A DNA stretch of 42,721 bases, taken from a virus. The notes under the pieces were generated by a model. That model saw nothing but the letters and a program-made list of their open reading frames with translations. It made no database searches and was not told the origin of the DNA. Below, one piece after another: positions 6,498-42,721 of this stretch. The stretch covers positions 1 through 42,721 of the IMG/VR virus record IMGVR_UViG_3300037502_001914. One strand, 5' to 3'. Each line of letters opens with the position of its first letter. Position 1 is the stretch's first letter. Position numbers and translations under genes: made by a program.

Positions 6498-6549
6498 ATA
6501 AATTTATTTTACATATAAATATATCAATAAATACAATTATTAAAATAAT

Positions 6550-13576: not shown

Positions 13577-16500
13577 AATTTTAATTTATTTCTAGTTAGA
13601 ATAAAATTATCTGTATTTATACTCCAAGTTGTATCTTCTTTATCAAAAATATCAATGTTATTTTTATTCAAAGTTATAAAAACAGTTTTTATTTTAAAAT
13701 CTGGATTTGTATTTTCTGTGTAAACAACTTTGAAATTATCTTTATTTAATGTGATGTCTGTCTTTAATGAATTTATTGCTTTTTTTGAATTTTTATCAAA
13801 ATCATCTAATTTTTCAGAATATTCTTTATTTTTATCTTTAAACCTATTTCTAACATCTTCAATATACTCATCAAATATTTTAGATACAACATCATTACTT
13901 TGTGTTATAGTTGGTTTATAAGATAAATTAGAAACAATTTTAATACCATTCTTGAAAGTTTCTTTTGCATTATCATTCATAATTGCATTATATAATAATA
14001 AATACATAAAACTATATTGCTCATCTCCACTTAAAATATTTTTTGGATTTTTTATTTCATTAGAAGAATAGTATAAAATATTATTTTTTATAGCATCACT
14101 AACACCTTTTAAAACATTCTCAATTAATGTTTGATATGAATTTAACTCATATGCTGTAACATTACCTGTTTTATCAACAAATCCATCATAACCTTCTTTT
14201 AAATTATATTTTGATAAAACAACCAAAACCTTTGATAAAACTTTTTGAAAAGTTGATTGTATCTTAACAAAATCATTTAACATAATATCAATACTATTTA
14301 TAAGTTCTAATATTATTTTATTTGTTTGTTTTTTATAATTCAATTTAAATTGTTCATCTTCTTTTGTTTTTGATTTTTTAAACTCATCATTTACTTTTTT
14401 GATAAAATCATCTTTATCATCTAAAATATTTTTTTGATATTCATTAATATATTCAAATAATTTATCCTTATATTTTAATGATGGAATTCCAAATAATTTA
14501 AATTCAGAGTTAGCATTTATTGAATACACTCCATCTATGTAATTAAGATAATCAAACAAGAAAAATAATGCTGCACTACCATTCTTCTGTGAAAAATTTT
14601 GTATTTTATTATTTAATGAATTAACATAATCATTTGCAGAGTTAATTAACTCAACCATTAAATTATAATAATCTAATGTTTTATTTGTTGTATCAATAAC
14701 ACCAATTGTATTAAAACTATTTGTTACAATATCATTTGTGGTTTTATTATCATCCTCAACCTTTTCCTTCTCCCTAATAAAATCTTCTATTTTTTTGTCC
14801 ATATCATCTAAACTAAAATCTGTTTTTTCAGCTCTTGGATCATAAACTTCAGTATTTGCATAATAATTAAATGACAAAGCATTCTGTAATTTATCAACAG
14901 CATTGCTTAAACCACTAGCACCAACAAATTTAAATGACAATTGAATTTTTGCAATCATTGGTTGAAATCCAATTCCTTCTGGGTTTATATCCCAATGTAG
15001 TGGATCATAACTAATTTGTAAATTTTCTGGTATAATCTTTGTATGAAAAAAATCTCCAACCCTTAATATCAAAACTGGGGGAATACCAAATGCTGTATTT
15101 TTTGCATCCCTAACCTCACCAACACCATCTTTCCTTATTGTTGGTATTGTATCACCAGGTCTAACACATTGTTGTAAAAATGTTAATCTACTATTTAAAC
15201 CTTCAGGTGTTGTTGAATGGAAAATTGGATTAAAATATTTTATTTTTTCTTTTAAATTATTATAAATAAAAGGACTTGTTTCTTTTATTGTTTCAAAATA
15301 ATCACATTCATTTAGCAGTTTTTGTAGTATTTTTTTTGAAATATTCTTTATAACTTTTTCTTGTGTTTCCACAAGTTTAACATTAGTTATTTGTTTAATT
15401 ACTTTAATTTCAGCTTCAGTTGTTGGATTAGGTGGTGTAATTGGTATTGTTGGATTTGTAGTTTTAGTAGCTTTGATATTTGTTATTGCAGTTCTTCTAC
15501 AAGCCATAGCATATTGACTTGTTACATCAAATGTATTAGTGCATTTAGATACAGAAAAATCGCTATACCTACTTGATTTTGCAACAACACCTACATCTTC
15601 ACCTTGATTATTAAATTTTGTTATTGTAAATTTTTCTGATTTTATATTATCTTTTAAATATTTTTCAATAGTCTTGCTACGCCTTTTGCTTAACTCTATA
15701 TTATAAGAATTAGTTCCAGGGTTTGATGCTGTTGAAGTCAATTCTATGCTAATAGTACTCCCATCATTGTTTTTTAAAAAATTATTACATTCAGTTATAA
15801 ATTGGTTTAATTCTTTAAAATTATCTTGAATATAATCTGTCATAAAAGTAGTAGTATCATAAAGTGTGTTACTTGTATATGATTTAAATGTATCTAAATA
15901 TTTTGCATCACTTGATTTAGGTATATCATTATCAAAATAGAAAGCATAACCACTATATTTATTAAAATCTGAAACTGTTTCAACTATAGGTTTAGTTGTG
16001 TCCTTTATGCTAATTGGATCTGATCCTGTGATAACTGTTCTCTTAATATATGATACTTGGTCAACTATTGTTTTATCCTCTTTCACCATTTTTTGTATTT
16101 CTTCAAGTTCAGATAGTTTCATTGTATTATATATCTTTGCTAAATCATATATATCATAAGTCAAACATCCAGCAAAAAAAGATGACAAAATACCATTTAT
16201 ATTTTCAGAGTTGCTTTCATTTGCTAAAACTTTATTTGAAATAACATTTAAAATAGATGGATGATCAACAACAATAGTAAAATCAATTGACCCAGACCTT
16301 GCTGTATTTTTATAAGTATATACAGGTTCTGGTCTTCCTAAAAATTCATTAGGATTCCAGTTTGCAGTTGATGAATCAGTAACTTTTAAATCATAAGGTG
16401 GAAACCACATAATTCTACCACCATTTGGACCTTTCTCACATTCAGGCAAATCTAAATACATATCACTTGTTCTCCATGCCAAATTTTCAATAGAAAGCAT

Positions 16501-18270
16501 ATATTTTTTTGCATCATTTCCAGCTCTTGGAGTTATACTCAAATCATATGTATTATTAATTACTGAACTTTTCATTCTCCTACCGCTTGTTGTAATACCA
16601 TTCACTTTCTGCAATCTTTCATAAGTCATATAAGGTGAATCTTTTGTGAATAATCTACAATACTCTTCAAATGACCCATTTGTTAATGTTTCAGCATTCT
16701 GATATTTGTATTTTTTAACTTTTGAACCTTTTGTAATCTCTTTATATCCATCATTGAAAACTTTACTAACTTGGTCAATAGCATTCCCCACATGCTTTAA
16801 TCTATTTGCTCCATTTGGTTGAGAGTTAATTAATTTTTGAGTATCATCCAAAATAGACCCTGGTTTGAATTTATAATTTGTTGACTCTGTTAAATCATAT
16901 GTTGTTTGTTTTGTGTTATTATCACCAAATACTTTTCCACTTTGTCCAATATTTTTACCAGAATTTTCTTTATATTTTTCTGAAACCCAAGTCAATCCAC
17001 CTTCAATACCACCACCATCATTGTAATTAACACCATTTAATCCTGTAGGTGGATTAAAATCTTCACCTTCATAAACTTTTGAAATTTCAGTTGGGCCATA
17101 CACAATAGCTTTGAATGGTCTATCAAATTGATCCACTGGCAAATCTGTTGGTGGTGATGAAATATCACTAACATCTAAATTTTCATTTCCAACATAATAA
17201 TTACTTTTATTTTTTGTGAAAAGATCCAAAAAAGAACCAAGAAAATCAGACCTATCATAATTTGGTTTATATAAATTCTCACTAATATTCTTATAATATA
17301 CCAATCTTTGCCCAGAACCCATATTATCATAAAATAACTGAGACCCTGTTTTTTTCTGTTGGAATTTAGTACCAAGGAATCCCCTAGGTTCTTTGCCATT
17401 TAACTTAATTGATTCATCAAAATAACTACCTAATATTGTTGGGAATGGTAATTCACCCCCTACTGCACCAATAAACAATTGTGCACCTCCAATAAGTAAA
17501 TTATTTGGTTTTGTTATACTCCAATTAGGCTCAATTATTGGTGTTCTGCCTATAATCAAATTATAAACATCTAATGGGTCATTTATATTTTCTATGGTCT
17601 GTTCAAATTTTTGAACAGTATCTATTTTGCTTATAAAAGCATTTGCTCTATCCTCAAGAATTTCATTTAATTTTTGAGCACTTAATCTTGCAATATATGA
17701 ATCTTCTGCCAAATTAGCCTTTGTTTCAGCAGTATCCATTAAAATGCCATATGGTGTATATGTTGATGGTACAAAACTACCACCACCTTCACCCCAATAA
17801 TACAATATACCTTCTTTTGGCAAATTTGGGTCAAACCAATATGTATCTTTTTCTATATAATATTTAGCATCACTATAAACATTAAATTTAACATTAACAC
17901 CTAAATAGAAATTTTTTGTTATATTTTCATTTAAAGTTGGTAAACTTGATTTTAATAAGAAAACTTTACTACTACCATACTCACCATAATTTGTTTTGCT
18001 ATTAGTTAATCTATTAGGATCAATAACTTGTGAATAACTACCACCATTTTTTCCATATTGATTTCTAGTATATAATTCATTTGCAAATTTGGGTGTATCA
18101 ATTAAATTATCAGGTGTGTCTTTAACACTTAAAATATTATCAAAAGGAGTTGCTTCATAATAAAATGGGGGTGTATTTTGAAAAGGTGATTTTTTATATG
18201 GGGGTAAATTTTTAATTACTAAATCTTTCCTAAATCTATCACTATTACCAAAATCTAAAGGGCTTCTCAT
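13573..18270 (-). CDS. Large baseplate protein with embedded OmpA-like domain
   Basis: 1565 residues. ATG at 18270, preceded by a perfect TATAAATA 9 nt upstream. A central region around residues 600-740 (MWFPPYDLKVTDSS, then SGSIDFTIVVDHPS) and the stretch IGFQPMIAKIQLSFKFVGAS, LQNALSFNYYANTEVYDPRA (around 1100-1150) look like structural baseplate/tube-contact segments shared by large contractile phages. Residues ~805-930 resemble an OmpA C-terminal domain: SYNIELSKRRSKTIEKYL fits NxxLSxxRAxxVxxyL, with a closing CRRTAI. The usual peptidoglycan-binding Asp is replaced (TSTASN). The C-terminal ~350 residues are Lys/Asp/Asn-rich and helical. Likely a wedge or periplasm-facing baseplate part; exact T4 equivalent unclear. 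Confidence 0.7.
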   Translation of the reverse strand: MRSPLDFGNSDRFRKDLVIKNLPPYKKSPFQNTPPFYYEATPFDNILSVKDTPDNLIDTPKFANELYTRNQYGKNGGSYSQVIDPNRLTNSKTNYGEYGSSKVFLLKSSLPTLNENITKNFYLGVNVKFNVYSDAKYYIEKDTYWFDPNLPKEGILYYWGEGGGSFVPSTYTPYGILMDTAETKANLAEDSYIARLSAQKLNEILEDRANAFISKIDTVQKFEQTIENINDPLDVYNLIIGRTPIIEPNWSITKPNNLLIGGAQLFIGAVGGELPFPTILGSYFDESIKLNGKEPRGFLGTKFQQKKTGSQLFYDNMGSGQRLVYYKNISENLYKPNYDRSDFLGSFLDLFTKNKSNYYVGNENLDVSDISSPPTDLPVDQFDRPFKAIVYGPTEISKVYEGEDFNPPTGLNGVNYNDGGGIEGGLTWVSEKYKENSGKNIGQSGKVFGDNNTKQTTYDLTESTNYKFKPGSILDDTQKLINSQPNGANRLKHVGNAIDQVSKVFNDGYKEITKGSKVKKYKYQNAETLTNGSFEEYCRLFTKDSPYMTYERLQKVNGITTSGRRMKSSVINNTYDLSITPRAGNDAKKYMLSIENLAWRTSDMYLDLPECEKGPNGGRIMWFPPYDLKVTDSSTANWNPNEFLGRPEPVYTYKNTARSGSIDFTIVVDHPSILNVISNKVLANESNSENINGILSSFFAGCLTYDIYDLAKIYNTMKLSELEEIQKMVKEDKTIVDQVSYIKRTVITGSDPISIKDTTKPIVETVSDFNKYSGYAFYFDNDIPKSSDAKYLDTFKSYTSNTLYDTTTFMTDYIQDNFKELNQFITECNNFLKNNDGSTISIELTSTASNPGTNSYNIELSKRRSKTIEKYLKDNIKSEKFTITKFNNQGEDVGVVAKSSRYSDFSVSKCTNTFDVTSQYAMACRRTAITNIKATKTTNPTIPITPPNPTTEAEIKVIKQITNVKLVETQEKVIKNISKKILQKLLNECDYFETIKETSPFIYNNLKEKIKYFNPIFHSTTPEGLNSRLTFLQQCVRPGDTIPTIRKDGVGEVRDAKNTAFGIPPVLILRVGDFFHTKIIPENLQISYDPLHWDINPEGIGFQPMIAKIQLSFKFVGASGLSNAVDKLQNALSFNYYANTEVYDPRAEKTDFSLDDMDKKIEDFIREKEKVEDDNKTTNDIVTNSFNTIGVIDTTNKTLDYYNLMVELINSANDYVNSLNNKIQNFSQKNGSAALFFLFDYLNYIDGVYSINANSEFKLFGIPSLKYKDKLFEYINEYQKNILDDKDDFIKKVNDEFKKSKTKEDEQFKLNYKKQTNKIILELINSIDIMLNDFVKIQSTFQKVLSKVLVVLSKYNLKEGYDGFVDKTGNVTAYELNSYQTLIENVLKGVSDAIKNNILYYSSNEIKNPKNILSGDEQYSFMYLLLYNAIMNDNAKETFKNGIKIVSNLSYKPTITQSNDVVSKIFDEYIEDVRNRFKDKNKEYSEKLDDFDKNSKKAINSLKTDITLNKDNFKVVYTENTNPDFKIKTVFITLNKNNIDIFDKEDTTWSINTDNFILTRNKLKL

Positions 18271-18279
18271 TATTTAATT

Positions 18280-18287
18280 TATTTATA
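18280..18287 (-). promoter_or_regulatory. T4-late-type promoter box
   Basis: TATAAATA on the minus strand, 9 nt before the ATG at 18270. It matches the T4 gp55-dependent late promoter -10 element and lies after the tape-measure stop. If used as in T4, the transcript would start only a few bases before the ATG. Confidence 0.6.
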
Positions 18288-18332
18288 AATATTTTAATGT
18301 ATGTTTTCTATATTAGTTAACCAAGATAGGTG

Positions 18333-20183
18333 CTATGTAAGAGTTCCAGTATCTTTTTCAGGAATCATAATACTTTTGTAATTTTTTTGACTATTATAAA
18401 AATAACTAGCTTCATCTATTTTATTTCTTTTTTTTGTCCTGCCTGATGAATCCAAAACTTTCTGAATAAACTCAAATGTGAATTTTGGATTTGAAGAATT
18501 AAGTGATGCAAGTCTATTATAATCATTTATTGGGTCTAAATTAAGTGGAGTTATTCTACTTCCTCTACCCATTGGGCTAAATGGTGTTACACTTCTATTA
18601 AAAAGAGATGTGAGCCTAGGTTCTAATAAACTACCATCAGTAGTAGAATTTCTTCTTATCTCGCTATCTAAAAGTTCATTATACTCACTAACATTAGGTA
18701 CAAGAGACTCAAGTACAGTTGATAGTTCTGAAAAATTATTTATAATATTTCTAACAGATTCTAATTCTGCTATTTTGCTCATTGCATCCAAAGGGTTTTT
18801 TGGGTCTAATTGTGGTGCTATTGTTTCAAGATCTGTTCTAAGTTTTATTAAATCTTCTTGACTAAATAAATTATCAATTGATTCTAACAATGTTGTTTTA
18901 ACAAATTCTCTATTTTTTTCTTGATAGTCTAAAAGAGTAGGAGTAGCTGCACCACCAAACAATAATCTATATTTTATTGCAATTAAATTATTTAATATTA
19001 AATTACCTGTTGACATTGATTCTTTTGTTAATTCTATTAATGTTTCTGGTTCTTTTTCTGAAATTTCTTTTAATTTATTTATTTGTGGTTCAGTCAATTC
19101 TGATACTTTTTTTGCTACCATTTCACCAGTTTTCTCATCTTTAATAGTAACAACATAGTCACCTTTTTCATTTAGATATGCCAAATTTGCAATTAACATT
19201 TCTTGCTCTTCTGATAAATTAAATTTAAAATCTATTTGAGATGCCCTTTCATTAAACTCTCTCATATTAATTGCAATTTTCTTTAATTTCTCATCATCAT
19301 AACCTAATTGAGTTCCTAATTCTTTAAACATTCCTATAGCAGATGGATTTATTGAAATTTTACCTGTTTCAATATCTAATGTTGTGAATTGTTCTACTGC
19401 TCTTCCAATACTCTTTATAAGTCCTTCTGGGTCATTTAAAGATTTATTCATCAATGTAAATGGATCAGCCAAATCACCCATAAAAATACCCAATCTTTGA
19501 AGAGCTGATGCTGTCTCAATTGCACCTTCAACATTAAAAACTTTATCAGCAAATGATTTAATATCACTCATATCTGCTTTTAATATAGCTGCTGTTGCTG
19601 CCATTTTTGAAAAACCTAAAACACCTTCTTTAAAATTAAATCTATTCAATAAGTCTGCATTATTAAGAACATCAGTCATTACAGACTTGGCATCCATACC
19701 TATACTCTTAACATATTTTATAGAATTCTGAACATCTTTTGTTACATTTGCTATAGATATGCCTACATTTGAAAAATTTGTTACAATTGTTTTAGTATCA
19801 GTATCTAATAGTTGAGTTAATGTGAATATATCAGTATATACATCTTTATCAAAAACAACAACTCTATTTAGTGCTGCACTTGACTCTTTTATCATATTAA
19901 CAACATTTTCTACATCACCTCCTAGTTGTCTAACAATTGGTGAAACTGTTGCAATTGTTGATTTAAATTCAAGCACTCTTGATCTACCCAAAATAAAATT
20001 CTCATTTATTTCAGATGATAACTTTTCCAAAGCATTTATTGCACCTGGAAGATTTGCAAAATCTTTAAATACACTTTGTAATGTTGCTAAATCTATTCCA
20101 AACATACTTCCAGTAATACCACCAGTTGCACTACTAGCAGTACCAGCTATTGAAGTAAGATAATCCCTAAAACTACCAGCCAT
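18333..20183 (-). CDS. Tail tape-measure protein (candidate)
   Basis: 616 residues, mostly helical, with long stretches of alternating small and hydrophobic residues and no cysteine. It lies directly after the tail chaperone/frameshift ORF and before the baseplate genes, the standard position for the tape measure. Segments such as SALQRLGIFMGDLADPFTLM, followed by IKSIGRAVEQF, resemble tape-measure proteins of related large myophages. A length of 616 aa would predict a tail of roughly 90 nm by the usual 1.5 Å per residue rule. The upstream gap holds a perfect 13-bp hairpin and a near-late box (TATAAATT, 20191-20198, 7 nt before the ATG). T4 gp29 is of similar length (590 aa). Confidence 0.75.
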   Translation of the reverse strand: MAGSFRDYLTSIAGTASSATGGITGSMFGIDLATLQSVFKDFANLPGAINALEKLSSEINENFILGRSRVLEFKSTIATVSPIVRQLGGDVENVVNMIKESSAALNRVVVFDKDVYTDIFTLTQLLDTDTKTIVTNFSNVGISIANVTKDVQNSIKYVKSIGMDAKSVMTDVLNNADLLNRFNFKEGVLGFSKMAATAAILKADMSDIKSFADKVFNVEGAIETASALQRLGIFMGDLADPFTLMNKSLNDPEGLIKSIGRAVEQFTTLDIETGKISINPSAIGMFKELGTQLGYDDEKLKKIAINMREFNERASQIDFKFNLSEEQEMLIANLAYLNEKGDYVVTIKDEKTGEMVAKKVSELTEPQINKLKEISEKEPETLIELTKESMSTGNLILNNLIAIKYRLLFGGAATPTLLDYQEKNREFVKTTLLESIDNLFSQEDLIKLRTDLETIAPQLDPKNPLDAMSKIAELESVRNIINNFSELSTVLESLVPNVSEYNELLDSEIRRNSTTDGSLLEPRLTSLFNRSVTPFSPMGRGSRITPLNLDPINDYNRLASLNSSNPKFTFEFIQKVLDSSGRTKKRNKIDEASYFYNSQKNYKSIMIPEKDTGTLT

Positions 20184-20198: not shown

Positions 20199-20207
20199 TA
20201 TAAATAG

Positions 20208-21739: not shown

Positions 21740-21747
21740 TATTTATA
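21740..21747 (-). promoter_or_regulatory. T4-late-type promoter box of tail tube gene
   Basis: TATAAATA on the minus strand, 7 nt before the ATG at 21732, in a clear ~106-nt intergenic space. This is the most convincing late promoter of the structural cluster because it sits in front of a highly expressed monocistronic gene. Confidence 0.65.
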
Positions 21748-21838
21748 AATATCTAATGTTTTATTTTTTTATTATATAATTGAATTTTTTTCTATTTACT
21801 TTTTTATTATAGGGTATAAATTTGTATTATATAATATA

Positions 21839-26912: not shown

Positions 26913-26978
26913 TATTTTTTATTATTTATTTACATAAATATCTAAAAAACAATCAAAAACTATTATATATAATATATT

Positions 26979-27753: not shown

Positions 27754-27927
27754 TTATTTTTTTAAATCAACTTCATTATTATGCCAACATTTGTGGCATA
27801 TATAAGGGTCATCACCACCTTCTGATAGTTTCCAAGACCAACCACAATTGTCACAAATAACTTCTTTTTTTGTTACAATTTCAATAATTCTATTCAATTG
27901 TGATTCTGTTATATGCAATTTTTTCAT
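27754..27927 (-). CDS. Small zinc-ribbon protein
   Basis: 57 residues, ATG at 27927, stop TAA at 27754-27756. I translated it from the sequence: N-terminal MKKLHITESQLNRIIEIV (amphipathic helix), then CDNCGWSWKLSEGGDDPYIC, followed by HKC and W. The two CxxC pairs ~17 residues apart form a standard zinc ribbon. The ATG overlaps the upstream stop (ATGA), and only one base separates its stop from gp15, so it is fully coupled to the neck genes. Role unknown; it could be a DNA- or protein-binding accessory. Confidence 0.8.
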   Translation of the reverse strand: MKKLHITESQLNRIIEIVTKKEVICDNCGWSWKLSEGGDDPYICHKCWHNNEVDLKK

Positions 27928-28442
27928 AACCCTCTAAATTCATCTTTATTTACAAATGTTGCAACAACTGTTCTATAGAATGGTTTATACCCTGCATAGG
28001 TGTGTTTATTATCCATATTAACAATTCCATCATCAATCACAGAATAATATCTAACTTTATCTTCTGTTACATAATATCCTAAATAATCACCTTTTAATAA
28101 TTCAACTTTCAAATCATCAAGTTGTTTTTGATAAAATGAGAATTTCATATTCCCAGGCTCTTTCTGTTCAACTTTGGAATTTCCAAGTTGTTTTAAACTT
28201 GATTCTGCAATTTGAACAATTCCTTTAACCTCAATAGGAGGCATAAAAACAATTCCATCTTTTGGGGCTTCTCCATAAATGTCATCTTTTTTTGTCTTTT
28301 TCCTATCTATTCTATATAAGACAACACTCATATTCAAGTCATCACCCAAATATTCCATTCCCATTTCAATATCTAAATTAAAATCATCCTCACCAAAAAA
28401 TTTACCAATTCTTGATATTGGGACTAATTTTGCCATAAGCAT
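27924..28442 (-). CDS. Neck protein, possibly gp14-like
   Basis: 172 residues; ATG at 28442, or at 28436 (MAKLVP). Beta-rich, without membrane segments. FFGEDDFNLDIEMGMEYLGDD followed by a long strand (MSVVLYRID), and 'VELLKGDYLGYYVTEDKVRYYSV', resemble the 'FF..FGmqv.devtlsI' and 'p.eGDliyfp.dn.lfeI' parts of T4 gp14. Gene order (this gene, Zn ribbon, gp15, sheath) supports a head-tail connector. The likeness is weak, so treat it as a candidate. It is first in the minus-strand tail block, with an 86-nt divergent gap to the SNF2 gene. Confidence 0.5.
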   Translation of the reverse strand: MLMAKLVPISRIGKFFGEDDFNLDIEMGMEYLGDDLNMSVVLYRIDRKKTKKDDIYGEAPKDGIVFMPPIEVKGIVQIAESSLKQLGNSKVEQKEPGNMKFSFYQKQLDDLKVELLKGDYLGYYVTEDKVRYYSVIDDGIVNMDNKHTYAGYKPFYRTVVATFVNKDEFRGL

Positions 28443-28528
28443 AATTTATTATACTAATAAATATATAAGACTTAATAAATTGATAATTTGTTTTATTTTT
28501 ATTATAATTAAATTATGTAAATTATATT

Positions 28529-30620: not shown

Positions 30621-31205
30621 TTATCTTTTTATTACTCCATTTATATACCCTCCTGGTTTTACCATATTTCTAATCTCCCATGCTTTATAATTTTTTAATG
30701 GTTCAGACAAGTATAGATTACGACCAACTTTCAATCCTTCTGGTAATAATTCTATTCTTGAAAATGATAAATCTAAATAACCAACAACTTGCAAACCTTC
30801 TGGCAATGAGGTTAGGGTTGAAAATTCTAAATGCAAATTACCACCAACTTTCAAACCTTCTGGTAATGATTCCATAGATGAATATTGTAAATGCAAATTA
30901 CCTCTAACTATCAAATCTTTTGGCAATGATTCAATTGCTGATTTATATAATAGCAAATCACCACCAACCTCCAATCCTTCTGGTAGTGAGGTTATTTTTG
31001 AACCTCTTAAAGATAAATCACCCCCAACTTTCAATCCTTCTGGTAATGAGGTTATACTTGAAAATCTTAAATCCAAATCACCTTTAACATTTAATTCTTC
31101 TTTTGTTAATGGTATATTATTAATTAATTTCCATTTAACTGGTGCTCTATGCTCTCCCTTCTCTTCAAGGAAATCAAATATTCTTTTTAGTGCTTCTTTT
31201 TCCAT
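30621..31205 (-). CDS. LRR-repeat protein, cistron 11 (last)
   Basis: 194 residues, six full 20-residue repeats plus a terminal cap. The N-terminal cap MEKEALKRIFDFLEEKGEH is typical of the array. Its end, LKNYKAWEIRNMVKPGGYINGVIKR in substance, is the most divergent C-terminal cap. Repeat 6 has VVGYLDLSFSRIELLPEGL, with variant positions near the conserved G. It is the only cistron separated from its upstream neighbour by a gap (3 nt) instead of an overlap, and it is directly followed by the bidirectional terminator. Confidence 0.85.
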   Translation of the reverse strand: MEKEALKRIFDFLEEKGEHRAPVKWKLINNIPLTKEELNVKGDLDLRFSSITSLPEGLKVGGDLSLRGSKITSLPEGLEVGGDLLLYKSAIESLPKDLIVRGNLHLQYSSMESLPEGLKVGGNLHLEFSTLTSLPEGLQVVGYLDLSFSRIELLPEGLKVGRNLYLSEPLKNYKAWEIRNMVKPGGYINGVIKR

Positions 31206-31208
31206 TAT

Positions 31209-31610
31209 CTAATATATATTTCCATTTATATAACCAGGTTTTATCATTTCTCTTAATTCATCATCTGAAAGTTTTTCTAATTTTGATCCTCTAGTAAATA
31301 AATCACCCTCTAATTTCAAACCTTTTGGCAATAATGTTATTGATGTGTATCTTAAATACAAATCGCCACCAATTTTCAATCCTTCTGGTAATGAGGTTAT
31401 TGCTGATCCAAATAATAACAAATTTCCCATAACTTTTAACCCTTCTGGTAGTGAAGTTATATTTGAATTATGTAAATCTAAATCACCTTCAATATTTAAA
31501 TCATCTTCTCTTAATGGTATATCATGCCTCAATTTCCATAATAATGGTGGATTACAATTTTCATTCTCTTCAAGAAAATCAAATATTCTTTTTAGTTGTT
31601 CTTTTTTCAT
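31209..31610 (-). CDS. LRR-repeat protein, cistron 10
   Basis: 133 residues, the shortest of the array, with three full repeats. N-terminal cap MKKEQLKRIFDFLEENENC. The last repeat is degenerate (KLEGDLFTRGSKLEKLSDDE) and runs straight into the C-terminal cap ELREMIKPGYINGNIY. ATG overlaps the stop of cistron 9 by one base. The 5' end and junction lie in a 93-bp stretch identical to the cistron 3/4 junction, so this gene boundary was duplicated. Confidence 0.85.
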   Translation of the reverse strand: MKKEQLKRIFDFLEENENCNPPLLWKLRHDIPLREDDLNIEGDLDLHNSNITSLPEGLKVMGNLLLFGSAITSLPEGLKIGGDLYLRYTSITLLPKGLKLEGDLFTRGSKLEKLSDDELREMIKPGYINGNIY

Positions 31611-31668
31611 TATATTAATATTTCTCCATGTATAAATCCAGGATAAACCATTTCTCTTAATTCATCCT
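31576..31668 (-). repeat. 93-bp gene-junction block identical to 34570-34662
   Basis: Covers the N-terminus of cistron 10, the one-base overlap, and the C-terminal cap of cistron 9. Identical to the cistron 4/cistron 3 junction. Confidence 0.9.
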
Positions 31669-32092
31669 CATAATCATCATTATAATCATAGTCATCAGCT
31701 AATGGAGTTCCAATTAAGTCCAAATCACCGCCAACTTCCAATCCTTTTGGTAATGATTTTATATCTGTATATACTATATTCAAATCACCGCCAACTTCTA
31801 ATCCTTCTGGTAGTGATGTTATTTTTGTATTAGCCAAAGACAAATCACCCCCAACTTTCAACCCTTTTGGTAATAACATTATCTTTGAAATGGATAAATC
31901 TAAATCACCTTCAACTTTCAACCCTTCTGGCAATGAAGTTATATTTGATTGAAACAAATTCAAATTGCCTTTAACATTTAAATCTTCTTCTATTAATGGT
32001 TCATTATTTTTAAATTTCCATAAAAATGGTGCTCTATGCTCTCCCTTCTCTTCAAGAAACTCAAATATTCTTTTTAGTGCTTCTTTTTTCAT
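31610..32092 (-). CDS. LRR-repeat protein, cistron 9
   Basis: 160 residues, four full repeats. The C-terminal cap is a variant shared only with cistron 3: an acidic loop (ADDYDYNDDYEDEL) followed by REMVYPGFIHGEILI. Its 3' end is part of the 93-bp duplicated junction (31576-31668). Start overlaps the cistron 8 stop by 4 nt (ATGA). Confidence 0.85.
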   Translation of the reverse strand: MKKEALKRIFEFLEEKGEHRAPFLWKFKNNEPLIEEDLNVKGNLNLFQSNITSLPEGLKVEGDLDLSISKIMLLPKGLKVGGDLSLANTKITSLPEGLEVGGDLNIVYTDIKSLPKGLEVGGDLDLIGTPLADDYDYNDDYEDELREMVYPGFIHGEILI

Positions 32093-32676
32093 GTCCTATA
32101 TATCTTTCCTTTTATAACTCCAGGTTTTATCATTTCTCTTAATTGTTTATTTGTGTATTTTTTTAATGGTGTGTTATATATATGTAAATTACCACCAACT
32201 TTCAAGTCTTCTGGTAATGAGGTTATATTTGAATATGCTAAATTCAAATAACCACCAACTTTCAAACCTTTTGGTAATGAGGTTATATTTGAATATGATA
32301 AATACAAATTACCTCTAACTATTAACCCTTCTGGTAATGATTTTATTTTTGAATAATGTAAATACAAATCATCACCAACTTCCAATCCTTCTGGTAATGA
32401 TATTATTTCTGAATATGATAAATCCAAATAACCAAAAACTTTCAAGCCTTCTGGTAATGAGGTTATGTTTGAATCATTTAAATTTAAATTCCCCTCAACC
32501 TCTAATCCTTCTGGCAATGAGGTTAGAATTGTTCTTCTTAAATCCAAAGTACCACTAACTTTCAAATCTTCTTTTGTTAATGGTATATTATTAATTAATT
32601 TCCATTTAACTGGTGCATTTTGCTCTCCTTTCTCTTCAAGGAAATCAAATATTCTTTTTAGTGCTTCTTTTTTCAT
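32089..32676 (-). CDS. LRR-repeat protein, cistron 8
   Basis: 195 residues, six full repeats. It shares a 128-bp identical block with cistron 5 (32213-32340) and a 76-bp identical block with cistron 6 (32333-32408), so it is a mosaic of two relatives. One repeat has GDD in place of GGD (EVGDDLYLHYSKIKSLPEGL), a variant also found in cistron 6. Start overlaps the cistron 7 stop by 4 nt. Confidence 0.87.
   Translation of the reverse strand: MKKEALKRIFDFLEEKGEQNAPVKWKLINNIPLTKEDLKVSGTLDLRRTILTSLPEGLEVEGNLNLNDSNITSLPEGLKVFGYLDLSYSEIISLPEGLEVGDDLYLHYSKIKSLPEGLIVRGNLYLSYSNITSLPKGLKVGGYLNLAYSNITSLPEDLKVGGNLHIYNTPLKKYTNKQLREMIKPGVIKGKIYRT
32213..32340 (-). repeat. 128-bp block identical to 33845-33972
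   Basis: Base-by-base identical in cistron 8 and cistron 5, beginning and ending at GGTAATGA. Flanks differ, so this is an internal segment copy and not a whole-gene duplication. Confidence 0.9.
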
Positions 32677-33080
32677 CTCCTATATATCTTTCCTTTTATA
32701 ACTCCAGGTTTTATCATTTCTATTAATTGTTTATTTGTGTATTTTTTTAATGGTGTGTTATTTATATGTAAATTCCCACCAACTTTCAATCCTTCTGGTA
32801 GTGAGGTTATTTTTGAACCCATTAAAAATAAAGCACCTTCAACTGTTAAATCATTTGGTAATGAGGTTATGTCTGTTAAATATAAATTCAAATAACCACC
32901 AACTTTCAATCCTCTTGGTAATGAGGTTATTTTTGAGTAATGTAAATTCAAATCACCTTTAACATTTAAATCTTCTTCTATTAATGGTTCATTATTTTTA
33001 AATTTCCATAAAAATGGTGCTCTATGCTCTTCCTTCTCTTCAAGGAAATCAAATATTCTTTTTAGTGCTTGTTTTTCCAT
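32673..33080 (-). CDS. LRR-repeat protein, cistron 7
   Basis: 135 residues, three full repeats, one with a shifted consensus (TVEGALFLMGSKITSLPEGL). The C-terminal cap (TPLKKYTNKQLIEMIKPGVI) is nearly the same as that of cistron 8, and the DNA of the two 3' ends is almost identical, pointing to recent copying. ATG overlaps the cistron 6 stop by one base. Confidence 0.85.
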   Translation of the reverse strand: MEKQALKRIFDFLEEKEEHRAPFLWKFKNNEPLIEEDLNVKGDLNLHYSKITSLPRGLKVGGYLNLYLTDITSLPNDLTVEGALFLMGSKITSLPEGLKVGGNLHINNTPLKKYTNKQLIEMIKPGVIKGKIYRR

Positions 33081-33664
33081 TATCTAACTATATCATATTT
33101 TATAAATCCAGGTTTAATCATTTCTCTTAATTCATTATCTAAATATTGTTCTAATTCTGTATATCTTATATATAAATTCTCACCAACTTCTAAGCCTTCT
33201 GGTAATGAAGTTATTTTTGTTCCACTTATATTCAACTCACCCCCAACTTTCAACCCTTTTGGTAATGAGGTAATTTCTAATCCTTCTAAATTTAAATACC
33301 CTTTAACATTTAATCCTTCCGGTATTGATGTTATTTTTGATTGAAAAAGGGTTAAACTATTCCCAACTTTTAAGCCTTGTGGTAATGATTTTATTTTTGA
33401 ATAATGTAAATACAAATCATCACCAACTTCCAATCCTTCTGGTAATGATATTATTTTTGAATATGATAAATCTAAAGTACCACTAACTTTTAATCCTTTT
33501 GGTAATGATTTTATTTTTGAATCAAATAAATCCAAATCACCTTTAACATTTAAATCTTTTTCTGTTAATTGAATTTTACTCTTCACTTTCCACAAGAATG
33601 GGGGGTTACAATTTTCCTTTTCTTCAAGGAATTTAAATATTCTTTTTAGTGCTTCTTTTTTCAT
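33080..33664 (-). CDS. LRR-repeat protein, cistron 6
   Basis: 194 residues, six full repeats. The variants in repeats 4 and 5 (KVGNSLTLFQSKITSIPEGL and NVKGYLNLEGLEITSLPKGL) are the least regular in the array. It shares 76 identical bases with cistron 8 (33381-33456). C-terminal cap ends KYDIVR rather than KGKIYR. Start overlaps the cistron 5 stop by 4 nt. Confidence 0.85.
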   Translation of the reverse strand: MKKEALKRIFKFLEEKENCNPPFLWKVKSKIQLTEKDLNVKGDLDLFDSKIKSLPKGLKVSGTLDLSYSKIISLPEGLEVGDDLYLHYSKIKSLPQGLKVGNSLTLFQSKITSIPEGLNVKGYLNLEGLEITSLPKGLKVGGELNISGTKITSLPEGLEVGENLYIRYTELEQYLDNELREMIKPGFIKYDIVR

Positions 33665-34188
33665 GTCCTATATATCTTTCCTTTTATAAATCCAGATTTT
33701 ATTATTCCTCTTAATTCTTTATTTGTGTATTTTTTTAATGGTGTGTTATCTATATGTAAATTACCACCAACTTTCAAGTCTTCTGGTAATGAAGTTATTT
33801 TTGAATAAAATAAATTCAAATCACCACCAACTTCCAATCCTTTTGGTAATGAGGTTATATTTGAATATGCTAAATTCAAATAACCACCAACTTTCAAACC
33901 TTTTGGTAATGAGGTTATATTTGAATATGATAAATACAAATTACCTCTAACTATTAACCCTTCTGGTAATGAGGTTATATTTGAATAGGTTAAATACAAA
34001 TTACCTCTAACTATTAACCCTTCTGGTAATGAGGTTATATTTGTATGAGTAAAAGACAAATCACCCTTAACATTTAAATCTTTGTCTGTTAATGGAATTT
34101 TATTCTTCAATTTCCACAAAAGGGGTCCAAGATGCTCTCCCTTTTCTTCAAGAAATTCAAATATTCTTTTTAGTGCTTCTTTTTCCAT
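33661..34188 (-). CDS. LRR-repeat protein, cistron 5
   Basis: 175 residues, five full repeats. Two neighbouring 60-bp DNA units (33905-33964 and 33965-34024) differ at only two bases, so one repeat was recently duplicated in place. A 128-bp block (33845-33972) is identical to cistron 8. The C-terminal cap has IIKSGF where others have MIKPGF. ATG overlaps the cistron 4 stop by one base. Confidence 0.87.
   Translation of the reverse strand: MEKEALKRIFEFLEEKGEHLGPLLWKLKNKIPLTDKDLNVKGDLSFTHTNITSLPEGLIVRGNLYLTYSNITSLPEGLIVRGNLYLSYSNITSLPKGLKVGGYLNLAYSNITSLPKGLEVGGDLNLFYSKITSLPEDLKVGGNLHIDNTPLKKYTNKELRGIIKSGFIKGKIYRT
33845..33972 (-). repeat. 128-bp block identical to 32213-32340
   Basis: Second copy, in cistron 5; codes for the repeats with LAYSNITSLPKGL and LSYSNITSLP. 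Confidence 0.9.
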
Positions 34189-34604
34189 TAGTTATATATT
34201 TCTCCTTTTATAAAACCTGGCTTTATCATTTCCCTTAATTCTTCATCTGAATATTTTACCAATGGTGTATGAGTTATATCTAAATTGCCACCAACTTTTA
34301 ATCCTTTTGGTAATGATGTTAGTTCTGTATCTGTTAAATCTAAAGTACCACTAACTTCCAAGTCTTCTGGTAATGATTTTATTTCTGAATATGACAAATC
34401 CAAATAACCAAAAACTTTCAATCCTTTTGGTAATGATGTTATTTTTGTTGATATTAAATTCAAATCTCCTTTAACATTTAATTCTTCTTTTGTTAGGGAT
34501 TCATTAAATTTTAATTTCCAAATAAACTTATCTCTATCTTTATGTTTTTTGTTTTCTTTTTCTTCAAGGAAATCAAATATTCTTTTTAGTTGTTCTTTTT
34601 TCAT
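34188..34604 (-). CDS. LRR-repeat protein, cistron 4
   Basis: 138 residues, three full repeats. The segment between N-terminal cap and first repeat is longer and basic (ENKKHKDRDKFIWKLKFNE), like cistrons 1 and 3. Its 5' end lies in the 93-bp block (34570-34662) identical to the cistron 9/10 junction. ATG overlaps the cistron 3 stop by one base. Confidence 0.85.
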   Translation of the reverse strand: MKKEQLKRIFDFLEEKENKKHKDRDKFIWKLKFNESLTKEELNVKGDLNLISTKITSLPKGLKVFGYLDLSYSEIKSLPEDLEVSGTLDLTDTELTSLPKGLKVGGNLDITHTPLVKYSDEELREMIKPGFIKGEIYN

Positions 34605-34662
34605 TATATTAATATTTCTCCATGTATAAATCCAGGATAAACCATTTCTCTTAATTCATCCT
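34570..34662 (-). repeat. 93-bp gene-junction block identical to 31576-31668
   Basis: Second copy of the junction block, between cistrons 3 and 4. It shows that the array grew partly by copying segments that span gene boundaries. Confidence 0.9.
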
Positions 34663-35080
34663 GATTATAATCATCAGCTAATGGAGTTCCAGTTAAGTCC
34701 AAATCGCCATTGACTTCCAACCCTTTTGGTAATGATGTGATTTTAGAAAATGATAAATCCAAACTACTCACAACTTCCAACCCTTCAGGTAATGAAGTTA
34801 TGTTTGTTTCTGCTAACCACAAATGACCCCCAACTTTCAAACCTTTTGGTAAAGAAGTTAAGTGTTTACAATGGGATAAATCCAAATTTCCTTCAACTTT
34901 TAACCCTTCTGGCAATGAAGTTATATTTGATTTATACAAATTCAAATTACCTTTAACATTTAAATCTTCTTTTGTTAATGGTTCATTGAAAATTAATTTC
35001 CATTTTAATGTGTCTTTATATTTTTTACCCTCCTTCTTTTCAAGGAAATAAAATATTCTTTTTAGTGCTTGTTTTTCCAT
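34604..35080 (-). CDS. LRR-repeat protein, cistron 3
   Basis: 158 residues, four full repeats, one of 21 residues (with SHCKHLTSLPKGL). Linker basic (EGKKYKDTLKWK). C-terminal cap of the rare acidic-loop type (ADDYNQDELREMVYPGF), shared with cistron 9. ATG overlaps the cistron 2 stop by one base. Confidence 0.85.
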   Translation of the reverse strand: MEKQALKRIFYFLEKKEGKKYKDTLKWKLIFNEPLTKEDLNVKGNLNLYKSNITSLPEGLKVEGNLDLSHCKHLTSLPKGLKVGGHLWLAETNITSLPEGLEVVSSLDLSFSKITSLPKGLEVNGDLDLTGTPLADDYNQDELREMVYPGFIHGEILI

Positions 35081-35859
35081 TATCTAATTATTTTTCCTTT
35101 TATAAATCCAGGTTTAATCATTTCTCTTAATTCTTTATTTGTGTATTTTTTTAATGGTGTGAAATTTATATTCAAACTCCCACCAACTTTCAAATCTTTT
35201 GGTAATAAGGTTATAGATGAAAATGCTAAATCAAGATTACCACCAACTTCCAATCCTTCTGGCAATGAGGTTATGTTTGAACTTATTAAATTCAAACCAC
35301 CTCTAACTTTTAATCCTTTTGGTAATGAGGTTAGAATTGTTTTTCTTAAATCCAAAGTGCCACCAACTTTCAAATCTTCTGGCAATGAGGTAATATTTGT
35401 ATTACCTAATCGCAAATTTCCACCAACTTCCAATCCTTTTGGTAATGATGTTATTTTTAAATTAAAAGTACTTGAATATGTTAAATCCAAATCACCACCA
35501 ACTTTCAACCCTTCTGGTAATGAGGTTATTCTTAACCCTCTTATATCCAAATTACCACCAACTTCCAATCCTTCTGGTAAGGAACTAATAGTTGAATAGA
35601 GTAAAGTCAAATTACCCCCAACTTTTAAGCCTTTTGGTAATGATTTTATATTTACATATGTTAAATCCAAATCACCACCAACTTTCAACCCTTCTGGTAA
35701 TGATGTTATTTTTGAATCCCGTAAGTCCAAGTCACCACCAACTTCCAAATCTTCTTCTATTAATGGTATTCCATTTTTCCATTTCCATAAAAATGGAGGG
35801 TTACAATTTTCCTTTTCTTCAAGGAAATCAAATATTATTTTTAGTGCTTCTTTTTCCAT
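35080..35859 (-). CDS. LRR-repeat protein, cistron 2 (longest)
   Basis: 259 residues, nine full repeats. One repeat is 25 residues because of a five-residue insertion around STFNL, which would bulge from the solenoid. N-terminal cap reads MEKEALKIIFDFLEEKENC (Arg to Ile compared with the others). ATG overlaps the cistron 1 stop by one base. The run of near-identical repeats makes it the best candidate for gain or loss of units by recombination. Confidence 0.87.
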   Translation of the reverse strand: MEKEALKIIFDFLEEKENCNPPFLWKWKNGIPLIEEDLEVGGDLDLRDSKITSLPEGLKVGGDLDLTYVNIKSLPKGLKVGGNLTLLYSTISSLPEGLEVGGNLDIRGLRITSLPEGLKVGGDLDLTYSSTFNLKITSLPKGLEVGGNLRLGNTNITSLPEDLKVGGTLDLRKTILTSLPKGLKVRGGLNLISSNITSLPEGLEVGGNLDLAFSSITLLPKDLKVGGSLNINFTPLKKYTNKELREMIKPGFIKGKIIR

Positions 35860-36341
35860 TATCTAATTATTTCTCCTTTTATAAATCCAGGTTTAATCAT
35901 TTCCCTTACTTCTTCATCTGAATATTTTGTTAATGGTGTGTACTTTATATACAAAATCTTACCAACCTCCAATCCTTTTGGTAATGAGGTTATGGCATCA
36001 CAACCAATTATGTTTAATTCACCACCAACTTTTAAATCATCTGGCAATGATGTTATTTTTTTTTGACCTCTTAAATCCAAACTACCCCCAACTTCTAATC
36101 CTTCTGGTAATGATGTTATTTTTGTTTCATATAAACTCAAAAAACCACTAATTTTCAATCCTTTTGGTAATGATTTTATTTTTGATTTATACAGAATCAA
36201 ATTACCTTTGAAATTTAAATCTTCTTCTGTTAATGGGTAATTAAGCATAATTTTCCATGTTAGAGTTCTTTTATATTTTGGTATTTTATTTTCCTTCTCT
36301 TCAAGAAAATCAAATATTCTTTTTAGTTTGGTAATATCCAT
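35859..36341 (-). CDS. LRR-repeat protein, cistron 1 (first of eleven)
   Basis: 160 residues from the ATG at 36341 (MDITKLKRIF). A TTG at 36398 extends the frame but lies beyond the promoter box and inside the SOD gene, so it is rejected. The shared plan is an amphipathic N-terminal helix (LKRIFDFLEEKE), a WK..N.PLTEEDL linker, 20-residue repeats of type KVGGDLxLxxSxITSLPEGL, and a C-terminal cap (LxxYxxEEVREMIKPGFIKGE). It has four full repeats, two of them 21 residues long. The pattern is a leucine-rich solenoid, with the LP of each repeat recalling YopM/IpaH-type LRRs. No signal peptide, membrane segment or catalytic motif. A late box (36350-36357) is 8 nt upstream. Function unknown. Confidence 0.85.
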   Translation of the reverse strand: MDITKLKRIFDFLEEKENKIPKYKRTLTWKIMLNYPLTEEDLNFKGNLILYKSKIKSLPKGLKISGFLSLYETKITSLPEGLEVGGSLDLRGQKKITSLPDDLKVGGELNIIGCDAITSLPKGLEVGKILYIKYTPLTKYSDEEVREMIKPGFIKGEIIR

Positions 36342-36349
36342 TATCTTAA

Positions 36350-36366
36350 TATTTATATTATAAATA
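36350..36366. promoter_or_regulatory. Back-to-back late promoter boxes between LRR operon and SOD
   Basis: TATTTATATTATAAATA is a perfect palindrome around one central T. It gives TATAAATA on the minus strand (36350-36357, 8 nt before the LRR ATG at 36341) and TATAAATA on the plus strand (36359-36366, 9 nt before the SOD ATG at 36376). With only 34 nt between the two start codons, both genes would be switched on together as late genes. Confidence 0.65.
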
Positions 36367-36375
36367 TAATCTTTT

Positions 36376-37065
36376 ATGAAAATACTAGAAACAATCAAAG
36401 AAGAAATAATATCAAGAATACATAAAGATAATGTTGATTTCTTAATTCAAGAAATGAAAAAAGTTGGCATTGAAAAACTTCCTTATTCATATGCTTCATT
36501 AAAACCTTTTGTTGATGAAAAGACAATGAATATTCATTATAACAAACATTATATTGGTTATGTGGATAAATTGAATAAAGCATTAAAGAAAACAAAATCA
36601 AATGGTGATTTAAAGCAAATCATATCAAATATAAGCAAATATGATGATAAGATTAGGAATAATGCTGGTGGCGCATTTAATCATGCTTTATTCTGGAATA
36701 TGTTAACCCCCACCAAAAAGGATGTTCCAAGTGAATTAAAAACAAAAATAAATGCAAGTTTTGGAACATTTAATGCTTTCAAGAAAAAGTTTGAGGAAGT
36801 TGCAAAAGACCATTTTGGATCTGGATGGGTCTGGCTTGTTGCAACCAAAAATAATAGATTAAAAGTGATAAGCACACCAAACCAGGATAACCCCCTTATG
36901 AATGTGATTAAGGATGGGGGTTTTCCAATATTGGGATTGGATTTATGGGAACATGCTTATTATCTAAAATATCAAAACAAAAGGGATGAATATATTCATA
37001 ACTTTTGGGATTATGTAAATTGGGGTTTTGTTCTTGAATTATATCAAAATGCAAATGATAAGTAG
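36376..37065 (+). CDS. sod: Fe/Mn superoxide dismutase with N-terminal extension
   Basis: 229 residues. It would convert superoxide to H2O2 and O2. All four metal ligands are present: H54 (MNIHYNKH), H103 (GGAFNHALFWNML), D189 and H193 (LDLWEHAYYLKY). H58 and the GSGWVWLV segment are also conserved. About 30 residues precede the usual SOD start (IEKLPYSY.SL.PFVDEKT); they are not hydrophobic enough for a signal peptide, so the enzyme is probably cytoplasmic or carried in the virion. Fe versus Mn preference cannot be read by eye. It faces the LRR operon across a shared promoter region and is followed 39 nt later by gp13. Confidence 0.92.
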   Translation: MKILETIKEEIISRIHKDNVDFLIQEMKKVGIEKLPYSYASLKPFVDEKTMNIHYNKHYIGYVDKLNKALKKTKSNGDLKQIISNISKYDDKIRNNAGGAFNHALFWNMLTPTKKDVPSELKTKINASFGTFNAFKKKFEEVAKDHFGSGWVWLVATKNNRLKVISTPNQDNPLMNVIKDGGFPILGLDLWEHAYYLKYQNKRDEYIHNFWDYVNWGFVLELYQNANDK

Positions 37066-37104
37066 CCAAAAGAATAGTTTCTTATATTTATATATAAAAG
37101 AAAT

Positions 37105-38232
37105 ATGTCAGTAATAGCCGAGCCGGAAAGAACACAAATTTATACAAGAGTTCGTCATTTACTTGGTGCTCCATTAAGGGGTGTTGAGATAACTGATGAA
37201 ATGATGGATTCATTAATGGAACTTTCTGTTCAAGATTATGAACAGTATGTTCTTAATTGGCTTATAGATAGCCAATGGGTAAATCTTGTAAACTTAAATA
37301 TGTCTGAGAAATCTGTTGCAAATGCTTTAATCACTAAAACAATGGATTTTCAAAAACAATATGAATATTCATATTCAAAGATTGTTGGATTGCAATCTGG
37401 TGGTCCTTGGGTCTTACAGAAAGATTATTTTACATTAGAGCCAAACAAACAAATATATGAAATTCCAGCTGGAAGAGAAGTGAATGAATTGCTTTGGTTT
37501 AGCAATCAACCTTGGACTGCATTTGGTTTAGGAGGTGTTGGCGGATTTGGATTTGGTGGAATTGGTCTTGGTGCAACAGAGGCGGGTTATGCACAATTGG
37601 GTTATCAAGGTTCTTACTTTATGATGTCAGGATTTGATTATCTTGTTAGAATGCAAGAAGCAAATATATTAAATAGAATTCTAGGAGGTTCATTAACATA
37701 TAGAATAACAGGATTACCTGATGGAAAAAAAGCCATCCAATTGTATAACACACCTGGTGGTAGATTTAATTGGAGCAATTTCTCATTATATGTTGGAAAA
37801 CAAGTATGGTATTGGTATTATGAGGTAGATGGTGATAGCCGTGGAAAATGTTTGGAAGATAATCCAGATATTATAAGATTACCATCTGATGTTCCATTAA
37901 CAGATTTAACTTGGGATAAATTAAACCAACCATCAAAACATTGGGTTAGAAGGTGGTTTACAGCCTATGTAAAGGAGAGTTTAGGTAGAGTTAGGGGAAA
38001 ATATAGCGGAGCAATAAAAGTCCCAGATTCAGACCTAAAAATGGATTATGAATCATTGATTACTGAAGGTAAAGATGAAAAACAAAAATTGCTTGAGGAA
38101 CTAATTGGTGAAAATGGTACATTATCAAGGCTAAGACCTGAAAAACAAATGGAAAAAGAAGCAAATATTGCTGAAAACTTAAACAAACAATTAAAGTTTG
38201 TTGCAATGCCAAGACAAATTTATGTAATTTAA
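37105..38232 (+). CDS. 13: Neck protein gp13-like
   Basis: 375 residues (T4 gp13: 309). The N-terminal VRHLLGAPLRGVEITDEMMD, then SVQDYEQYVLNW, follows the T4 gp13 plan 'ilrrLGaPiinVElT.dqi...i..Al..Y'. The C-terminal YVKESLGRVRGKYSGAIKVP, with a later 'LITEGKDEKQKLLEEL', is the conserved end of this family. A Gly-rich insertion (GLGGVGGFGFGGIGLG) near residues 141-156 accounts for the extra length. gp13 joins the portal vertex to the tail with gp14. A TATATAAA string lies 7 nt before the ATG. Separated from gp14/gp15-like genes by the 8.5-kb accessory island. Confidence 0.75.
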   Translation: MSVIAEPERTQIYTRVRHLLGAPLRGVEITDEMMDSLMELSVQDYEQYVLNWLIDSQWVNLVNLNMSEKSVANALITKTMDFQKQYEYSYSKIVGLQSGGPWVLQKDYFTLEPNKQIYEIPAGREVNELLWFSNQPWTAFGLGGVGGFGFGGIGLGATEAGYAQLGYQGSYFMMSGFDYLVRMQEANILNRILGGSLTYRITGLPDGKKAIQLYNTPGGRFNWSNFSLYVGKQVWYWYYEVDGDSRGKCLEDNPDIIRLPSDVPLTDLTWDKLNQPSKHWVRRWFTAYVKESLGRVRGKYSGAIKVPDSDLKMDYESLITEGKDEKQKLLEELIGENGTLSRLRPEKQMEKEANIAENLNKQLKFVAMPRQIYVI

Positions 38233-41690: not shown

Positions 41691-42065
41691 TTAATTGAAC
41701 TTTTTGATAAATGAGTCCAAGATAATAATAGTCAATTCCTCCCTTAAAGGCAATATGAGGTCTCCATTTTCATTTCTAATCAAGAATTCACCTTTATATA
41801 TGCCTGGTGTATTGGTCTCTCTTTTCTTGAATTGATAATATATATAATATTCTACAGTTGGTGTTGGCTCTAATGTTTCCTTTGCCACTAAATACGCTTC
41901 ACTATTTGCAATCTTATAAATACCAGTTTTTGAATCAACCATTGAAAATAATATGGTAGATGATTCCAAATCTTCCATAAATTTCTTATAGTCAGACCTA
42001 CCATCCTTTATTGGTTCAACTTTTAATATAGGTAAATCTGCTCCTTTCTTTATGTAAAAATTCAT
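41691..42065 (-). CDS. Unknown beta-rich protein, probably virion-related
   Basis: 124 residues. Sequence elements such as STILFSMVDSKTGIYKIAN, VEYYIYYQFKKRET, 'PGIYKGEFLI' and the closing 'LPLREELTIIILDSF' suggest an Ig-like or fibre-type beta domain known from several tail-associated phage proteins. No firm family. The gene lies just before the polymerase in the same direction. TTATAAAG stands 8-15 nt before its ATG but is a poor late box. Confidence 0.6.
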   Translation of the reverse strand: MNFYIKKGADLPILKVEPIKDGRSDYKKFMEDLESSTILFSMVDSKTGIYKIANSEAYLVAKETLEPTPTVEYYIYYQFKKRETNTPGIYKGEFLIRNENGDLILPLREELTIIILDSFIKKFN

Positions 42066-42195
42066 ATTATCTTTATAAATAAATATACAAAAAATATAAA
42101 TTCAAAAAAAACTTGCCTAAAATATTTTCTTTGGTTATACTTGTAAAGTCTTATTTAAAATAAATCAATTTTTTTTTTCACAAAACAATTTTATT

Positions 42196-42721
42196 ATGAA
42201 AAACATTTTTAAAACGTTGCTATTATCATTAGTAACGTTAACAATTGGTTATGGTCAAGTAACAACTTCGGCTATATCAGGTACAGTTAAAGATGCAAGT
42301 AATGAAGTGCTTATTGGTGCAACCATTGAGGCAGTTCATTTACCATCTGGAACAAGTTATGGCACATCCACAGATGTAGATGGTGCATATAGAATTTCAG
42401 GTATGCGTATTGGTGGACCTTATAGCATTACAGTTAGTTATGTGGGCTATGCTACAAAAACCCAATCAAATGTTATTTTGAACTTGGGTTCAACAGCAAC
42501 CTTAAATTATTCACTTGATGTGGTTGAGTATGGGTTGACTGAAGTTACCATTAATGCAAACAAAAGTGGTATTTTCTCCTCTACTAGAACAGGTGCATCC
42601 ACACAGTTTAACTCAACTGTAATCAATAGTTTACCAACAATTGGTAGAACAATTGATGACATCACAAAATATAATGCTTATGGAAATGGGCGTTCATTTG
42701 GTGGTCAAGACAGTCGTTTTA
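42196..42721 (+). CDS. TonB-dependent-receptor-like outer membrane protein (5' part)
   Basis: 175 residues visible, open at the window edge. The N-terminus MKNIFKTLLLSLVTLTIGYG is a Sec signal peptide, probably cut before Gln. Next comes a carboxypeptidase-regulatory-like beta domain (SGTVKDASNEVLIGATIEA, then 'GTSTDVDGAYRISGMRIGGP', 'SYVGYATK'). Last is the start of the receptor plug (LTEVTINANK, then 'LPTIGRTIDDITKYNAYGNG', 'SFGGQDSRF'). This order is typical of ~1000-residue TonB-linked receptors of Bacteroidota. It looks less AT-rich than the phage genes. A CTTG-N20-TATACTTG string (42112-42143) could be a degenerate host promoter. Either a phage-acquired host gene or an assembly joint. 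Confidence 0.85.
   Translation, partial: MKNIFKTLLLSLVTLTIGYGQVTTSAISGTVKDASNEVLIGATIEAVHLPSGTSYGTSTDVDGAYRISGMRIGGPYSITVSYVGYATKTQSNVILNLGSTATLNYSLDVVEYGLTEVTINANKSGIFSSTRTGASTQFNSTVINSLPTIGRTIDDITKYNAYGNGRSFGGQDSRF

Follow-up and report, generated by a model that had tools for sequence, protein, structure and literature searches.

A palindrome between a phage superoxide dismutase gene and a leucine-rich repeat array, read as two overlapping divergent late-type promoters with a TATTTAT core

It is concluded here that the palindrome lying between the superoxide dismutase (SOD) gene and a divergent array of leucine-rich repeat (LRR) genes in a T4-like phage is most probably made up of two overlapping divergent late-type promoters, each with a TATTTAT core and each with initiation on an A about 11–13 nt downstream of the first T of that core; we give this reading a probability of about 0.8. 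The DNA analysed (the window) is a 42.7-kb IMG/VR fragment that encodes tail sheath, tube, baseplate hub, neck, UvsX, gp32, a DnaB-type helicase, DNA polymerase and an SNF2-type helicase. An initial annotation had proposed a divergent late promoter joining the SOD and LRR units, and the shared, divergent, late-type region stands; the assignment of its two arms has to be reversed. The site and the genes that flank it are as follows.

36349–36367, no strand assigned: 19-bp perfect palindrome (9+1+9) holding the two overlapping promoter cores, read from the sequence.
36350–36356, plus strand: TATTTAT core assigned to the SOD promoter (SOD-distal arm), first T at −26 from the ATG; a sense copy precedes SOD in 29 of 30 non-redundant relatives.
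36360–36366, minus strand: TATTTAT core assigned to the LRR-array promoter (LRR-distal arm), first T at −25 from the ATG, reading ATAAATA on the plus strand; found in LRR-carrying relatives and not in LRR-less ones.
36361–36363, plus strand: predicted SOD transcription start, an A at about 36362 within the LRR core, with a leader of about 14 nt (from AAA at +11 to +13 together with the cliff in spacing at −11).
36353–36355, minus strand: predicted LRR transcription start, an A at about 36354 within the SOD core, with a leader of about 13 nt (from the same two features).
36376–37065, plus strand: Fe/Mn superoxide dismutase of 229 aa, with about 30 aa ahead of the SOD domain (Pfam, alignment).
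30621–36341, minus strand: 11 leucine-rich repeat paralogues with conserved N- and C-termini, the first gene at 35859–36341 (sequence, fold match).

The SOD product matches PF00081 and PF02777 (E 1.2e-39 and 3.2e-23, respectively) and, when aligned with 6gsc, keeps IHY..KH, NH..FW and D.WEH, with the metal ligands His/His/Asp/His in place. The approximately 30 residues that precede the domain (36376–36470) are coiled-coil-like in relatives. The LRR proteins consist of repeated LPxxLxV-type units forming a solenoid; they match PDB 8z5u at E 5e-25, a structural model (pLDDT 88) matches LRR folds, and no Pfam match is obtained at 1e-3. Among solved structures, the nearest to them is an LRR protein belonging to a polar flagellar motor structure. 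The 11 tandem paralogues have in common a helical N-terminal part and a LREMIKPGFIKGKIYR-like C-terminal tail and differ in repeat number, and the copy number of the array varies among relatives. At 42196–42720 the window also carries a CarboxypepD_reg/TonB-receptor-like gene of host-like character, which is present again in several of the clade's viral contigs (1020 aa in G007, locus L222).

Read directly from the window, positions 36350–36366 are TATTTATA-T-TATAAATA, and one extra pair on each side extends this to the 19 bp listed above. TATAAATA lies at 36359–36366 on the plus strand and at 36357–36350 on the minus strand; 9 nt separate the 17-bp palindrome from the SOD ATG (36376) and 8 nt separate it from that of the first LRR gene (36341). 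On these points, a 17-bp palindrome with TATAAATA facing both sides at 8 and 9 nt from the start codons, the initial annotation was accurate. Taken alone, the palindrome and its motif are only mildly improbable, or at most moderately unusual, at 28% GC: TATAAATA occurs 23 times in the window against 13.9 ± 3.9 in shuffled sequence (23 or more in 3 of 100 shuffles), and 26 palindromes whose arms measure 8 bp or more are listed, against a shuffle mean of 10.9. The site is more than chance because its arms are conserved among relatives. Both TATTTAT and ATAAATA are kept in all five distinct LRR-carrying close-relative sequences (L087, which is the window, and L002, L003, L004 and L005), in which the spacing between the two cores varies from 1 to 3 nt.

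The orientation of the core was established across the clade. At least 593 SOD relatives were confirmed, and 80 SOD loci and 80 neck-gene loci were taken from viral contigs among the matches listed. In approximately 150 related viral contigs the element that precedes late genes reads TATTTAT in the direction of transcription, and the conserved element upstream of SOD, read in the same direction, is (T)TATTTAT, the SOD-distal arm. The fraction of genes with sense TATTTAT within 60 nt upstream is 0.99 for SOD, 0.99 for neck, 1.00 for sheath and 1.00 for tube, with 0.83 and 0.87 for families u27924 and u41691, and sense TATAAATA is rare, at 0.18 or less in any larger family. The non-redundant sets give 29/30 (SOD), 27/28 (neck), 13/13 (sheath) and 20/20 (tube), where dinucleotide shuffles lead to an expectation of 0.9–2.7. 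The portal gene is preceded by the motif in seven of nine relatives, and no exact copy was found at portal in two close relatives. Among 421 genes overlapping or directly adjoining the gene upstream, TATTTAT stands before only 4, as against 266 of 455 with longer intergenic gaps; in non-redundant intergenic regions sense TATAAATA is counted 16 times and sense TATTTATA 85 times.

The gene order UvsW–SOD–neck is conserved, with the LRR array inserted between UvsW and SOD, on the opposite strand, in the closest relatives only. LRR-less relatives keep the SOD-distal TATTTAT, and the proximal TATAAATA is missing in all of them; the LRR-carrying sequences have both arms. Other divergent pairs in the clade stand back to back (ATAAATA..TATTTAT) and retain sense TATTTAT despite the reversed order of the cores, which indicates that what is constant is the orientation of the core relative to its gene and not the order of the arms. 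Read on the coding (non-template) strand, the clade core is thus TATTTAT, and the T4 late box TATAAATA is its reverse complement; it follows that each gene at the palindrome uses its distal arm. In the part of the literature covered, we found no report of a TTATTTATA/TATTTAT phage promoter or of this motif in late promoters of Bacteroidota phages.

TATTTAT stands at distances of between 11 and about 46 nt from the ATG. Its first T, in the non-redundant set, lies at −11, −12 or −13 in 19, 13 and 12 cases, respectively, and almost never nearer to the ATG, and where the leader is longer, A occupies +11, +12 and +13 with frequencies of 0.79, 0.73 and 0.78. This cliff, together with the run of A, points to initiation on an A 11–13 nt past the first T, and the most closely spaced late mRNAs are probably leaderless. 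A logo of 107 leadered promoters has a weak A/T preference at about −15/−16 from the core and is A/T-rich past the core; there is no conserved −35 element, and the AT-rich downstream segment is of the T4 type. On this basis, the left arm (36350–36356, plus strand) would serve as the SOD promoter, with a start at about 36362, and the right arm (36366–36360, minus strand) as the LRR promoter, with a start at about 36354, each start being predicted to sit in the AAA of the opposite promoter's core. Since the starts would fall within the opposite cores, polymerase on one promoter should block the other, and the SOD and LRR promoters should be mutually exclusive. The earlier suggestion that the two units are expressed together is accordingly kept as far as the shared late-type site is concerned, with the qualification that a single DNA copy should, given the overlap, fire in one direction at a time. 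Late timing of both SOD and LRR expression is likely.

Several other explanations of the palindrome have been considered. The one implied by the initial annotation is that each proximal TATAAATA acts as a late −10 box, of the T4 type, for the gene that it faces, with leaders of about 2–4 nt. The match to the T4 consensus is exact in both directions, the spacing is plausible, and sense TATAAATA is indeed used by T4 late genes; however, the loss of the SOD-proximal arm in every LRR-less relative with retention of the distal one, and the rarity of sense TATAAATA across the clade, strongly disfavour this assignment, and we regard it as highly improbable. It is also very unlikely that TATTTAT is an element of the leader RNA, such as a translation enhancer or a processing site, with the real promoters further upstream. 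Shine–Dalgarno sites are not used in Bacteroidota (PMC6847099), which would suit such an element, as would the position of TATTTAT just 4–6 nt ahead of the ATG in the neck and u27924 families; the variable distance to the ATG and the absence of the motif before operon-internal genes argue against it, and the cliff at −11 with A at +11 to +13 is consistent with a constraint on the start site.

A third proposal, that the palindrome serves chiefly as the operator of a dimeric SOD regulator and derives from a dyad around the SOD promoter of relatives, is unlikely. A stem of at least 6 pairs around TATTTAT is possible in 17 of 29 non-redundant SOD upstream regions, against 5.7 when these are scrambled, but almost the same number form when right arms are exchanged between relatives (mean 14.5), so that covariation is not supported. 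Moreover, the GC-containing outer arms of the dyad are missing from the window, the length of the centre varies among close relatives, and the arms of the palindrome are promoter cores. The dyads themselves (GGATTAT..ATAATCC or GAGTTAT..ATAACTC) flank TATTTAT in most LRR-less SOD upstream regions, for example in L013, L015 and L056, and the palindrome could for this reason derive in part from an operator. Finally, a chance palindrome in AT-rich DNA, for which the 26 listed palindromes of similar size might be taken to speak, is contradicted by the conservation of both arms in the five distinct close relatives and of the distal arm in almost every SOD relative, and its probability is close to negligible.

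Copies of TATTTAT are also found before genes elsewhere in the window, as follows.

37085–37091, plus strand: TATTTAT before the neck (Ad2-like) gene, 37105–38232.
26934–26940, minus strand: TATTTAT before the tail sheath gene.
21745–21751, minus strand: TATTTAT before the tail tube gene.
20200–20206, minus strand: TATTTAT before gene 18333–20183.
18285–18291, minus strand: TATTTAT before gene 13573–18270.
28457–28463, minus strand: TATTTAT before gene 27924–28442.
42075–42085, minus strand: two overlapping TATTTAT before gene 41691–42065.
6515–6533, minus strand: two TATTTAT before gene 6291–6497.
621–627, minus strand: TATTTAT before the ribonucleotide reductase (RNR) small subunit gene.

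As the last entry indicates, the motif is not confined to virion genes. It precedes the RNR small subunit gene both in the window and in a relative, and gp32 in one relative, and most relatives have TATTTAT at −61 to −77 from the DNA polymerase gene, beyond the 60-nt search range. A reading in which the motif marks late genes only was dropped, given that DNA polymerase lacked it only within 60 nt and has it at 61–77 nt. The occurrence of the element before genes of DNA metabolism means that it does not by itself link the LRR proteins to virion assembly, a link raised in the initial annotation. For the major capsid gene, which closely follows another gene, no copy was found immediately upstream in the cases with a gene start that had been read, and there was no convincing enrichment of host-type promoters (TAnnTTTG) before early genes. 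In the polymerase leaders of relatives, TATTTAT is followed by a conserved, hairpin-like TTTCAC..GTGAAA, which resembles the autogenous operator of T4 gp43.

The core is probably read by a phage gp55-like sigma factor acting on host RNA polymerase. A late sigma of this kind had been anticipated, and the gene is present in relatives; none is found in the contig of the window, which is a fragment. Weak matches to the T4 late sigma family occur in 17 of 22 records, all to one protein, and the gp55-like protein was found in 16 relatives, with a length of about 245–255 aa in the clade and 240 aa in Flavobacterium phage immuto. Its homology to gp55 is weak at the sequence level. Profiles were needed because tblastn of the protein against phage records gave no match: a profile of the gp55-like proteins reaches T4 gene 55 at E 1e-5, with homologues in Mel-JY01 and LR756508, and the best PDB match is T4 gp55 itself (7d7c, E 0.0037). 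A search with PHROG 12791 for a late sigma yielded nothing in relatives or controls, and a fold search was uninformative with the structure model used, which is of low confidence (pLDDT 61.7). The gp55-like protein (L176:1294-2028 and relatives) has about 60–90 additional C-terminal residues by comparison with T4 gp55; this extension ends in a conserved LREMTNLSTKEIRSSIKRFKKLY segment that could, speculatively, be a helix-turn-helix. In LR756508.1 the gp55-like match (100309–100974, L183) contains one in-frame TAG, possibly a recoded stop, and neither TATTTAT nor ATAAATA occurs in the tandem gaps of the structural region read.

Somewhat better than evens, in our judgement, is a broader picture: that in a large T4-like clade, probably of Bacteroidota phages, the late core is the T4 box in reverse complement, that this core is read by a relative of gp55 extended by a long C-terminal part, that many late mRNAs of the clade start on the AUG, and that the SOD and LRR starts each lie inside the other's core. 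This is important because the eight letters of the T4 box stand on the opposite strand in a large clade of environmental phages, one cultured relative of which infects Flavobacterium; an analysis that takes the strand for granted assigns promoters in the wrong direction, as the initial annotation did. How a gp55-family factor picks the DNA strand and the start site can be tested directly in this clade, as can leaderless late mRNAs in hosts where Shine–Dalgarno sites are not used.

Late promoters of T4 have a TATAAATA box and depend on gp55, gp33 and DNA-loaded gp45. With an identical read-out, our T4 control has sense TATAAATA before late genes; the T4 and S-PM2 controls have sense TATAAATA/ATAAATA, and no TATTTAT was seen in the tandem gaps of either. 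The T4 late promoter is described as lacking a −35 element and as consisting of an 8-bp TATA box that lies about one turn ahead of the start, and this box is reported to be common to T4-like phages of Vibrio, Aeromonas and marine cyanobacteria, with the T4 consensus or a close variant in S-PM2, KVP40, 44RR and Aeh1 (PMC2988020). These four resemble the clade in being T4-like phages with gp55 homologues, and S-PM2 differs in the lack of sense TATTTAT in its tandem gaps. Other close counterparts are the Flavobacterium phage immuto and phage Mel-JY01, where sense TATTTAT is found in 16 of 30 and 10 of 28 tandem gaps, respectively. In both it precedes tube, hub and other late genes, and both encode a related gp55-like protein; in immuto it stands before terminase, portal, sheath, tube and tape measure, portal, terminase and sheath being further points of likeness. 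Unlike the window, neither has a crossed SOD/LRR pair in the regions read.

As in T4 late promoters, the predicted start is preceded at about one helical turn by a single AT-rich core, a clear −35 hexamer is missing and the sequence downstream is AT-rich; a position before virion genes and a gp55 homologue (here in relatives, the gene not being in the window fragment) are also shared, and divergent late pairs exist in T4 too (genes 4/53). The genes concerned include SOD, neck, sheath, tube and portal, with RNR, gp32 and DNA polymerase as exceptions. The differences are that the sense core of the clade is not TATAAATA at −10 on the coding strand but its reverse complement TATTTAT, that many clade genes are probably leaderless, and that T4 gp55 has 185 aa, against the greater length of the clade's protein. 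The clade promoter probably works in the manner of the T4 late promoter, and we would file it as a variant of the latter and not as a plain member, the architecture fitting while the strand of the core does not.
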